DNA from: Pseudomonadota bacterium | Lineage (GTDB): Bacteria > Desulfobacterota > Binatia > Binatales > Binataceae | DNA length: 64,000 nucleotides | Direction: 5' to 3' | Assembly: GCA_021324455.1 (NCBI GenBank) | Contig: JAJPJA010000139.1 | Coordinates: 70,207 to 134,206, forward strand | Shown here: one piece after another, positions 18,314 to 23,445 of the stretch | How the letters are laid out: each line of letters begins with the position of its first letter | Position numbering within the stretch: position 1 is the first letter of the stretch | Notes under the pieces: model-generated | Databases searched by the model: none | Seen by the model: only the letters and a program-made list of their open reading frames with translations | What the model was told of the DNA's origin: nothing | Translations under genes and position numbers: made by a program

Positions 18314-20590
18314 ATGAACGACGGCCGGCTTTCTGCCCTTGCCTACTGCGCCACGCTCTTCGCCGGATCGTTTCTGCTGTTCCAGCTCGAGCCGATGATG
18401 GGCAAATTCATACTGCCGTGGTTCGGCGGGGCGCAGGCGGTGTGGACCACCTGTATTCTTTTTTTTCAGATTGTTTTAGTGGCCGGCTATGCTTATGCAC
18501 ATCTGATTGGGACGCGTCTGGGTCCGCGGCGCCAGGCCCTCGTCCACCTTGCGCTGGTGGCGCTATGCTTGATGAGCATGGGCGCGCTTGCCTTGATATG
18601 GCAGTCGCCCATCATGCCGCCCGCCGCCTGGAAACCGCCGGATCCCGCACTGCCGGTCCTGCGGATTGTGAAGCTCCTGTTGGCCAGCGTCGGATTGCCT
18701 TATTTCGTGCTGTCCACCACCGCACCTCTGCTCCAGGCGTGGTTCGCGCAAAGCTGCCCGGGGTCATCTCCCTATCGTCTCTATGCATTCTCCAATCTGG
18801 GAGCGATGCTGGGTCTGCTGCTTTACCCATTTGTGGTGGAGCCGGCGTTCAGACTGAGCACGCAGGCGCGCCTGTGGTTGCTCATGTACATCGCATTCGC
18901 GAGCGGGATTGTATGGTGCGCCCGCACCCTTCCAGTAAGCGCGGCGCACCAGCCGCCTTATGCAGACCCGCACGATTATGAGGAGTCGGGGCCTGCGCCG
19001 GCGGCTTATCTTCTGTGGCTGGGGTTGAGCGCCTTTCCTTCGCTGCTGTTCCTCGCGGTGACCAACGAGCTTTGTCAGGATGTCGCAGCCGTACCCTTTT
19101 TGTGGGTCGTGCCGCTGGCCATCTATCTCTTATCCCTGAGCCTGTGTTTCGGCAGCGAGCGATGCTATCCACGGGGTCTTTTCAATCTCGCTTTCGCGCT
19201 TACAACCGTGCTGGTCTGCGCGGTGCTGTACCGGCCCGCGATTGCGATGTCCTGGCAGATAGTCGTCTACCTGGCGCTGCTGATTTGCGCGTGCATGGTC
19301 TGCCATGGCGAGCTGGTGCGACTCAAACCGGGACTTACGCGGCTGACCAGCTTCTATTTGACGGTCTCGGCCGGAGGGGCACTGGGCGGATTATTCGGCG
19401 CCGTCCTCGCACCCTGGATCTTCCGCGGATTCTGGGAGCTGCAGCTTTCAATCTTCGGCTGTGCGGCCGCACTTTACGGGGCGCTGCTGTATGACGGTCG
19501 ATCCTGGATGAAGCAACGCGGACCATTGCTGGCGCTGGCACTGCTGGCGGGAGTCGTGTTGTCGCCCGAACTGATTCTTCCCGGGGCCGCGGGCGGATCG
19601 CTGCTGTATTACAACCTGGCGGTGGGCGCCACTCTGATCGCGGCCGCGTCAGCCGCGATGCGGGGAAATGGATCTTCGAGCCGGGGTCACGGCCTTTTGG
19701 CAGTGACGGCGGGCTCAGGTCTGCTGCTCATCGGCGCCATCCTGTTGTACAACGTCAGGGCGCGGCTGGCCGTCAGCCTGGTCGCGGGCCGGAACTTTTA
19801 CGGCTCCTACGCCGTGGTGCTGAGCAACGCCGGCGACCCGGCCTGGCGCTCCTACACGCTGCGCCATGGACGGATCAGGCATGGGATGCAGTTCCCGCAA
19901 CCGGATAAGCGTTATCGCCCCACGAGTTACTACGGCCCCACCAGCGGCATTGGTCTGTTGCTGCTCCACGATCGCGTTCGCGCGCTCCATCCTCTGCACA
20001 TAGGAATAGTCGGACTCGGCGCCGGCACTGTGGCGGCCTATGGAAGGCCGGGCGACTACATCCGCTTTTACGAGATCGATCCGGCGATTATCAAACTCGC
20101 CACCGCCACCAGCAGTTATTTCACCTACGTGCGAGACTCACAGGCGCGGGTCGAGATAGTTCCCGGCGATGCCCGTCTTTCCATGGAACGCGAAATTGCC
20201 CACAAGCGCGGCCAACACTTCGACGTTCTGGCCATCGACGCTTTCAGCGGCGATTCCATTCCCGTGCATCTGCTGACCAGCGAAGCCTTTGCCATCTATC
20301 TGCGCCTGCTGGCGCCCGACGGAGTCCTCGCCTTTCACATCAGCAATCGCTACGTGGACTTGAAACCGGTCCTGCTGCAGTCCGCACGGCACTTCGGCCT
20401 GCGCGGCGGATGGGTACATGACGAGCCCTCGGACAGATTGAGCGAAACCAGCGACTGGGTGCTGTTGGCGCGCAATGACCTGGTCCTCGGCCAAAGCGGG
20501 ATATCGCAAAGGCTAACGCCGCTCAGTGGGGCAAAACCGGTGCGCATGTGGACCGACGACTACAGCAATCTTTTCCAAATTCTTCGTTAA
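18314..20590 (+). CDS. Fused MFS-like membrane / spermidine synthase-like protein
   Basis: N-terminal multi-TM LFAGSFLLFQLEPMMGKFILPWFGGAQAVWTTCILFFQ; C-terminal IGIVGLGAGTVAAYGRPGDYIRFYEIDPAIIKLA...VEIVPGDARLSMERE...FDVLAIDAFSGDSIPVHLLTSEAF. Confidence 0.9.
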   Translation: MNDGRLSALAYCATLFAGSFLLFQLEPMMGKFILPWFGGAQAVWTTCILFFQIVLVAGYAYAHLIGTRLGPRRQALVHLALVALCLMSMGALALIWQSPIMPPAAWKPPDPALPVLRIVKLLLASVGLPYFVLSTTAPLLQAWFAQSCPGSSPYRLYAFSNLGAMLGLLLYPFVVEPAFRLSTQARLWLLMYIAFASGIVWCARTLPVSAAHQPPYADPHDYEESGPAPAAYLLWLGLSAFPSLLFLAVTNELCQDVAAVPFLWVVPLAIYLLSLSLCFGSERCYPRGLFNLAFALTTVLVCAVLYRPAIAMSWQIVVYLALLICACMVCHGELVRLKPGLTRLTSFYLTVSAGGALGGLFGAVLAPWIFRGFWELQLSIFGCAAALYGALLYDGRSWMKQRGPLLALALLAGVVLSPELILPGAAGGSLLYYNLAVGATLIAAASAAMRGNGSSSRGHGLLAVTAGSGLLLIGAILLYNVRARLAVSLVAGRNFYGSYAVVLSNAGDPAWRSYTLRHGRIRHGMQFPQPDKRYRPTSYYGPTSGIGLLLLHDRVRALHPLHIGIVGLGAGTVAAYGRPGDYIRFYEIDPAIIKLATATSSYFTYVRDSQARVEIVPGDARLSMEREIAHKRGQHFDVLAIDAFSGDSIPVHLLTSEAFAIYLRLLAPDGVLAFHISNRYVDLKPVLLQSARHFGLRGGWVHDEPSDRLSETSDWVLLARNDLVLGQSGISQRLTPLSGAKPVRMWTDDYSNLFQILR

Positions 20591-20769: not shown

Positions 20770-21420
20770 TCAGCGGATGGCGCCGGGCACTTCCAAATCA
20801 CGGCTTAATCGGGAGACGAACTCGATCACGAGATCGGCGGCCTCGGCCAGGTTCTGCTCCAATGTGCGGCCCGAACGCCTGGTGGGTTTGAAGGAATGGT
20901 CGCCGTCATCGATCCAGGCGATCTTGATTTTCCGCGACAACTGGTAGCCCGCGACCTCATCGCGGTTGCCCAGGGAGTCGCGCGTGCCCTGGATTATCAG
21001 GGCGGGCGTGCGCAGGGTGCGCAGATGCTCGATACGGGGGTGCTGCGGGCGGCCGGGGGGATGGAAGGGGTAGCCCAAACAGACCAGGCCGGCCGCGCCG
21101 ACCTCGTCAGCCATCATGCTCGCGACGCGCCCGCCCATCGACTTGCCGCCAATTATCAGCCGCGCGGCGCCGCCCAACTGCTCGATAACCTCCATCCAGG
21201 CCGCGCGCAGGCTCGGTTCGCGATCGGGTGCGGTCCGTTTACCAGTGCGCCGCCGCGCCGCCATGTAGGGAAATTCGAACCGAACTACAGCCATTGCGGC
21301 GGTCCCGGCCTCCGCGGCAATGCGGTTCATGAAGGGCGAGTCCATCGGCGCTCCAGCGCCATGCGCCAGCACCAGGGTCAGCCGCGATGAGCGCGGCCCA
21401 TCATGCAACAGTTCAATCAT
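20770..21420 (-). CDS. Alpha/beta hydrolase, KANL3/Tex30-like
   Basis: LVLAHGAGAPMDSPFMNRIA, VVRFEFPYMAARRRTGKRTAPDREP, LIIGGKSMGGRVASMMADE, LCLGYPFHPPGRP. Confidence 0.85.
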   Translation of the reverse strand: MIELLHDGPRSSRLTLVLAHGAGAPMDSPFMNRIAAEAGTAAMAVVRFEFPYMAARRRTGKRTAPDREPSLRAAWMEVIEQLGGAARLIIGGKSMGGRVASMMADEVGAAGLVCLGYPFHPPGRPQHPRIEHLRTLRTPALIIQGTRDSLGNRDEVAGYQLSRKIKIAWIDDGDHSFKPTRRSGRTLEQNLAEAADLVIEFVSRLSRDLEVPGAIR

Positions 21421-21826
21421 AAAGGCAGACGCGTCCTGTGTGACCGATTAATAGCAAATCGCGGCCATCTTTAAGAGCCCGCAAAAGCTTCTGTTTATCA
21501 GGTCTTTGAAGCGCAGCGCCGGACCGCGGCGGCAAGATGGCTGAGGGCGAACGGCCATCGGATTGGCTTGCGCCGAGCTGTTAATTATTAGCAGACCTAA
21601 TCGGATTCGGCGTTCGCCGGATATTGACTACGAGCGTCTTCATCTCTATGTTTGTGCTAATCAATGCAATACCGAGCTAAAACACGTAGTAGAGCAACTT
21701 TTCCATTCAGTATGTTCACCCGATTTGAACATCCGGTTAAGTAGCGCAGCTTACATCCAGGAGATTAGTTTTTCTTACACGGAGTAGGTACGACGGGCGC
21801 AGCGGCAGGCAATCAGGAGGAAAAAA

Positions 21827-21922
21827 ATGGTTCTCTTATCCAACCCGTGGCTGTGGTTCGCGATTATCGCTGTGGCTTGGGTTCTGCTGCCACAACCGGG
21901 CTTGAGAAGAAGGCGGCGCTGA
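21827..21922 (+). CDS. Candidate 31-aa single-TM microprotein
   Basis: Own translation: MVLLSNPWLWFAIIAVAWVLLPQPGLRRRRR*; AGGAGG at 21815-21820 with a 6-nt A spacer before ATG; below the length cutoff of the ORF track. Confidence 0.5.
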   Translation: MVLLSNPWLWFAIIAVAWVLLPQPGLRRRRR

Positions 21923-22035
21923 GGATTTTGTCCGACTTGATGCCACCACGCGGCCACCGCGGGCGGCCCCTACCGCTTGACCCAAGCCGGCCCCCGCTTG
22001 ACTGTCATTGGGCAAACGTCGATGCTGCCAGTCAC

Positions 22036-22126
22036 GGAGAGGTTCGGGAGTCCGGCTTAACCGGCGTGACTCGAAATCACGTGTGCCCTTGTGGCACCGA
22101 GGGTTCAAATCCCTCCCTCTCCGCCA
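22036..22126 (+). tRNA. tRNA-Ser (anticodon CGA), CCA encoded
   Basis: Acceptor GGAGAGG/CCTCTCC, anticodon arm CGTGA-CTCGAAA-TCACG, long variable arm GTGCC-CTTGT-GGCAC, T arm GAGGG-TTCAAAT-CCCTC, G73, genomic CCA. Confidence 0.96.
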
Positions 22127-22197
22127 CCTTTCGGCCCGCGCTCCCGCAAGGCGGGGCGGTCTGAAGCGGCCGTCAATCAGGATTGGCGCGCTCCCAA

Positions 22198-23445
22198 TCA
22201 AATCCGGTCCGCCAGCGCCGGATCCTCCGACACGATACCTTTGGCCGCCAACTCCCGGATATCCGCCTCGCTGAAGCCGAGGTCCCGGGAAAGGACGGCG
22301 CGGTTGTCCTCGCCCAGCATCGCGACGCGCTGGCCGATTCGGGTCGGCGTCTCGGTCATATGGTAGGGCGTGCGCGCCAGCATCATCAGGCCCGCGCCGG
22401 GAACTTCGACCGGCTGCAGCACGTTGCGGCTGTTGATTTGCGGATGATTCACCGCCTCGGGCACGGTCAGCACCGGTGCCGCGATCAGGCCCGCGTCGCG
22501 GATGAATTTGATCGCGTCGTCGCGCCGCCTGAAGTTCTTGGTCACCCACGCCTGGACCTTCTCGGCCAGGACGTAGCGATTCTCGGAGCGCAACCGCAAA
22601 TTGGCGAAGCGCGGGTCGTCCTTAAGCTCGGTCATCCCGGACACTTTGACGAACAGGTCCCAGTAATGGTCGAGCACGACCATGATGAAGTAGCCGTCTT
22701 CGGTCTTGTAATAGCCGTGCGGCGTGGGGCCGTTGCGATGGCTGCCGAACGGCTTGGGCGCGTCGCCCGCCTTGTCGCCGGCCAGGTATTCGCACAGCGT
22801 GTTGTCGTGCAGGTTGAAGATGCATTCGGCCAGGCACAGGTCGATGTACTGGCCGCGGCCCGACTTCTCGCGGTAATACAGCGCCGCGCTGATCGCCCCG
22901 AACGCGTTGACGCCGGCGTTGCCGTCGGCCATGTAGATGCCGCTGAATACCGGCATCCCGTCCGGATTGCCGGTCAGCGAGGTGACGCCTGAGATCGACT
23001 GCGCGATAGCGTCGGTGGCCGGCAGCCTGGCCATCGGACCGGTCTGCCCGAATCCCGACACCGAGCACATGATGAGGCGCGGATTGATGGGCTTGAGGTC
23101 CTCGTAGCCCAGCCCGTACTTGCCCAGCAGGCCCGGCGTCAGGTTTTCCAGGAAGACGTCGAAATGTTTGATTAGCTGGCGCACCAGGGCCGCGCCGTCG
23201 GGCCGTTTGAAATCGATGCAGACGCTGCCCTTGCCGCGATTGTAGTAGGCATGCATCGGCGAAAAACGCATCCTGGAGCTCGGTTTGGGCATCGGACCGC
23301 GGCAGTAATCGCCGTTGGGCGGAAGCTCCAGCTTCACCACTTCAGCGCCGAGATCGGACAGGATGCGGCCTGCGACCGGACCCGCGATATAATTGGTAGC
23401 CTCCAGCACCCGGACTCCGGCCAGCGCCTGCGCGTCATTTGACAT
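22198..23445 (-). CDS. CaiB/BaiF family (class III) CoA-transferase
   Basis: LAGVRVLEATNYIAGPVAGRILSDLGAEVVKLE, YYNRGKGSVCIDFKRPDG, ENLTPGLLGKYGLGYEDLKPINPRLIMCSVSGFGQTGP. Confidence 0.95.
   Translation of the reverse strand: MSNDAQALAGVRVLEATNYIAGPVAGRILSDLGAEVVKLELPPNGDYCRGPMPKPSSRMRFSPMHAYYNRGKGSVCIDFKRPDGAALVRQLIKHFDVFLENLTPGLLGKYGLGYEDLKPINPRLIMCSVSGFGQTGPMARLPATDAIAQSISGVTSLTGNPDGMPVFSGIYMADGNAGVNAFGAISAALYYREKSGRGQYIDLCLAECIFNLHDNTLCEYLAGDKAGDAPKPFGSHRNGPTPHGYYKTEDGYFIMVVLDHYWDLFVKVSGMTELKDDPRFANLRLRSENRYVLAEKVQAWVTKNFRRRDDAIKFIRDAGLIAAPVLTVPEAVNHPQINSRNVLQPVEVPGAGLMMLARTPYHMTETPTRIGQRVAMLGEDNRAVLSRDLGFSEADIRELAAKGIVSEDPALADRI

Follow-up and report, generated by a model that had tools for sequence, protein, structure and literature searches.

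An open reading frame (ORF) of 31 codons, hereafter the microORF, lies on the plus strand at 21827..21922 of the window, the 64,000-nucleotide (nt) stretch of DNA from a Binataceae bacterium analysed here, and encodes a predicted single-span membrane peptide behind a strong Shine-Dalgarno (SD) sequence. On balance, we favour the reading that the microORF is a young, species-restricted ORF in a lineage-specific intergenic stretch, and that its product is a probably translated orphan membrane peptide, with or without a selected function.

The reading frame and its start signal

The SD sequence AGGAGG (21815..21820, plus strand) lies 6 nt 5' of the start codon, with AAAAAA at 21821-21826 between it and the ATG at 21827-21829, and the frame closes with TGA at 21920-21922; a preliminary description of this DNA had given the SD, the six A residues, the ATG and the 31-codon frame exactly to the base. 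The product, MVLLSNPWLWFAIIAVAWVLLPQPGLRRRRR, has a single hydrophobic stretch, with a highest 19-residue Kyte-Doolittle mean of 1.92, and its C-terminus consists of five arginines. A single-sequence AlphaFold2 model contains one helix, at residues 7-20 (mean predicted local distance difference test score 77). Translation, hydropathy and model agree with the one hydrophobic helix and five-arginine end described earlier, and the predicted 31-residue product is short, hydrophobic and single-span.

The microORF had also been credited with a strong ribosome-binding site, and SDs of this type are truly in use in the host. The pattern AGGAGG-N5-8-ATG occurs at 195 sites in the host genome, versus 52 for a reversed control pattern, and was above the control in 38 of the 38 genomes looked at; it is a genuine translation start signal in the host genome. 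When 108 of these sites were sampled, 67 were found to begin frames that have at least 100 codons or that reach past the sampled stretch. Besides the microORF, three sampled ORFs of no more than 80 codons contain a transmembrane (TM)-like stretch, and all three resemble familiar proteins (by eye, a Flp-type pilin, an ATP synthase c subunit and a glycine-rich lipoprotein). As a chance model, 6 megabases of DNA were simulated from host intergenic sequence and searched for AGGAGG-N4-10-ATG ORFs of 20-60 amino acids. This yielded 56 ORFs, 1 of which had a TM stretch, corresponding to about 0.1 TM ORFs with such a start per genome's worth of intergenic DNA, a rough figure that derives from one event. 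Together, the SD and the TM frame exceed the random-ORF expectation, as the preliminary description had supposed in calling chance less likely for a strong SD joined to a single-span shape, yet chance cases are plausible across the many genomes read.

Among promoter candidates for the microORF, the best is a promoter-like site on the plus strand, TTGACT-17-TATGTT at 21624..21652, from which the leader would be about 165 nt long. Its weighted promoter score of 15.0 (versus 14.3 for the 95th percentile of shuffle maxima) is the best in the region, higher than that of the promoter of the downstream tRNA-Ser gene, and the site is directed toward the microORF. The enriched start signal, the familiar look of the other sampled short TM ORFs, the rarity of TM ORFs in the simulation and this promoter-like site combine to make translation of the microORF the likelier outcome. 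In the sequence of events that we infer, transcription would begin at about 21660 from the sigma70-like site and translation would start at the AGGAGG site. The peptide would then enter the cytoplasmic membrane as a single helix (approximately residues 4-21), its arginine tail facing the cytoplasm (C-terminus-in) in line with the positive-inside rule. There it would either help in some mild, accessory way or serve no selected role.

Homologues, codon usage and mRNA structure

Evidence from conservation, codon usage and predicted mRNA pairing weighs against this reading. The microORF is single copy, with no second copy in its own genome, and no homologue was detected in 57 relatives, 148 class genomes or 395 phylum genomes, so that the comparison with relatives proposed in the preliminary description returned no homologous ORF at either the class or the phylum level. 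The microORF resembled nothing in phage or plasmid collections, and MVLLSNPWLWFAIIAVAWVLLPQPGLRRRRR matched nothing in Pfam, NCBIfam, PHROGs or the PDB sequences. Weak protein matches in relatives (E 0.006-1) were discarded, as those that were read lay inside other frames, lacked a start with an SD or contained stops. A scan of GTDB genomes for codons specifying NPWLWFA found 67 places, about the chance expectation, none of them with a similar ORF; matches to the same codon pattern in IMG/VR were rejected because they lay in unrelated frames, and two further IMG/VR patterns gave either no match or unrelated frames. Among the genomes searched, the microORF therefore appears confined to one species.

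Codon usage is likewise unlike that of the host. The mean synonymous codon preference of the microORF is -0.24 bits per codon (-7.3 bits in all), within the range of intergenic ORFs, which average -0.12, and 97% of 30-codon segments from real genes outscore it, placing it at the 3rd percentile. Two AGA codons and one TTA codon, all rare in the host genome, are among its 31. A comparison at 30 codons is a weak test, and since real genes score lower over their first 30 codons than in their interiors, with about 10% of these openings as low as the microORF, the result is suggestive rather than decisive; a negative codon score was likewise obtained for a lysine-rich ORF of 32 amino acids that shares this SD. 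To that suggestive extent, codon usage counts against the microORF as an established gene.

The SD is also predicted to pair with codons 2-4, with pairing probabilities of 0.76-0.99, which in this folding model could damp translation. The fold of the SD region was no stabler than those of shuffled sequences (z-scores -1.06 to +1.01), and no mRNA structure beyond that of shuffled sequence was found at the microORF.

The locus and its counterpart in relatives

The microORF sits within a gap of about 615 bases that separates an Abhydrolase_11 protein gene (20770-21420, minus strand) from tRNA-Ser(CGA) (22036-22126), which in turn lies between the microORF and a class III CoA-transferase gene (22198-23445, minus strand). 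These two protein-coding genes are the only credible ones beside it, consistent with the gene-poor stretch ahead of tRNA-Ser noted in the preliminary description. The intergenic stretch at 21421..21986, which holds the promoter-like site and the microORF, is partly A+T-rich, with a G+C content of about 44% at 21570-21790 versus 62% for the window, and its DNA matches neither of two congeners and gave no noteworthy match in 145 class genomes. In one of these congeners (G002), about 80 bases separate the hydrolase gene from the CoA-transferase gene next to it, and tRNA-Ser is found, oppositely oriented, on the side of the hydrolase gene away from the CoA-transferase gene. The stretch that holds the microORF was therefore either acquired or reshuffled in this lineage, or else the congeners have lost it.

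Several other features of the locus were recorded. Imperfect 18-nt direct repeats (21801-21818 and 22165-22182; 16 of 18 positions identical) bracket the block formed by the microORF and tRNA-Ser, and are possibly a trace of rearrangement, or else chance. Within the A+T-rich part, a 74-codon frame with a TTG start (21563-21787) weakly matches a PHROG (phrog_36691, E 0.002); it was rejected as a gene after no relative was found in the class or in phages. The possibility of a conserved gene running divergently from Abhydrolase_11 was likewise dismissed, as the relatives' loci examined have none. Farther upstream, a 758-amino-acid frame at 18314-20590 appears by eye to encode a fusion of a membrane protein with a spermidine-synthase-like methyltransferase domain; no Pfam family matched it up to E 1.

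Downstream of the microORF, tRNA-Ser has its own promoter, TTGACT-17-GATGCT (21998..22026, plus strand), and the same element, in the form TTGACT-17-(G/A)ATGCT, is kept immediately upstream of the tRNA across most of the family. The flanking genes are not kept, suggesting that the promoter and tRNA-Ser move together. The idea of a conserved gene upstream of tRNA-Ser was abandoned, as the 20 tRNA-Ser(CGA) loci examined share the promoter and not the microORF. In the congener (L023 / G002:C14), tRNA-Ser (84934-85075) and the hydrolase gene (85842) flank a lineage-specific A+T-richer stretch, upstream of the tRNA, that encodes a 110-amino-acid single-span protein (MMSTPKLLLWIGFVALMIYVFFFGF...), which is unrelated to the microORF and has only a weak TatA match (E 0.02). 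Orphan stretches may accumulate in the 5' flank of tRNA-Ser.

Competing explanations and the origin of membrane microproteins

The serious rival, somewhat less probable and close behind the favoured reading, is that the microORF is fortuitous: AGGAGGAAAAAAATG and a short hydrophobic frame would coincide in non-coding DNA, with no functional protein made. Codon usage indistinguishable from that of intergenic ORFs, the absence of a homologue from every collection searched, and a chance expectation that, although low for one genome, implies that chance cases exist over many genomes are all in keeping with such a coincidence. It fits less well with an SD and start codon that are a real signal in the host, with the finding that the other sampled hydrophobic short ORFs with the same SD are all recognisable proteins, or with the presence of a promoter-like site ahead of the frame. 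We regard it as unlikely that the microORF represents a bacterial gene caught soon after its birth from non-coding DNA, with a strong start and a membrane frame present, codons unadapted and a distribution limited to one species.

Membrane-associated type I toxins such as TisB, Ldr, Fst and AapA1 share their length, single span and positive C-terminus with the microORF product (PMC8309996), and its predicted paired SD would suit a peptide silenced by antisense RNA together with a base-paired ribosome-binding site. The microORF differs from those toxins in showing no sign of an antisense RNA, no repeat copies and no sequence relation to them. Over the ORF and leader, the best sigma70-like promoter score on the minus strand was 11.5 versus a shuffle mean of 12.6, so the search for an antisense RNA promoter that the preliminary description had suggested found none above shuffles, although an antisense RNA might be made from a different type of promoter or from another place in the genome; fold energy was no better than that of shuffles, and the single-copy microORF matches no phage, plasmid or toxin family. 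A type I toxin is accordingly very improbable, and filing the microORF under type I toxin-antitoxin systems was rejected on its single copy, the lack of an antisense promoter and the lack of relation to known toxins. More generally, of the earlier proposal that the peptide has the shape of a toxin, regulator or transporter subunit, the single-span shape stands, and any such identity is unsupported: no homologue was found, and no transporter or oxidase gene is adjacent to the microORF. The least probable explanation is that a mobile or foreign fragment once inserted next to tRNA-Ser and left a remnant, in which the microORF is a passenger or decayed gene. An A+T-rich stretch that occurs only here, the different position of tRNA-Ser in the congener, the bracketing direct repeats and codons unlike the host's could all be read as its traces, but neither an integrase, a transposase nor inverted ends were seen, phage and plasmid collections gave no match, and the repeats, which differ at 2 of 18 positions, may be chance.

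Returning to the predicted orphan membrane peptide, if it has a function, it would most likely serve as a small accessory peptide that binds a membrane protein or lipid, rather than as a toxin. Small single-span bacterial membrane proteins include KdpF, CydX, AcrZ and MgtS, which are conserved and act with identified partners. The microORF resembles them in its size class (about 30-50 residues), its one hydrophobic helix and its own ribosome-binding site, and differs in having no homologue, adjacent partner gene or family match. ORFs of about 30 codons that lack annotation are numerous, and few have been verified. Membrane ORFs that emerge de novo have been described in yeast (PMC7005711), and they are, like the microORF, lineage-restricted, short, TM-forming, located in A+T-richer intergenic DNA and unadapted in their codons; unlike them, the microORF is a bacterial candidate with a strong SD. 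At present, it is one orphan candidate among many. If translated, it would provide a dated membrane peptide restricted to one species, with neighbouring genes as landmarks, and would help in studying how membrane microproteins originate in bacteria.
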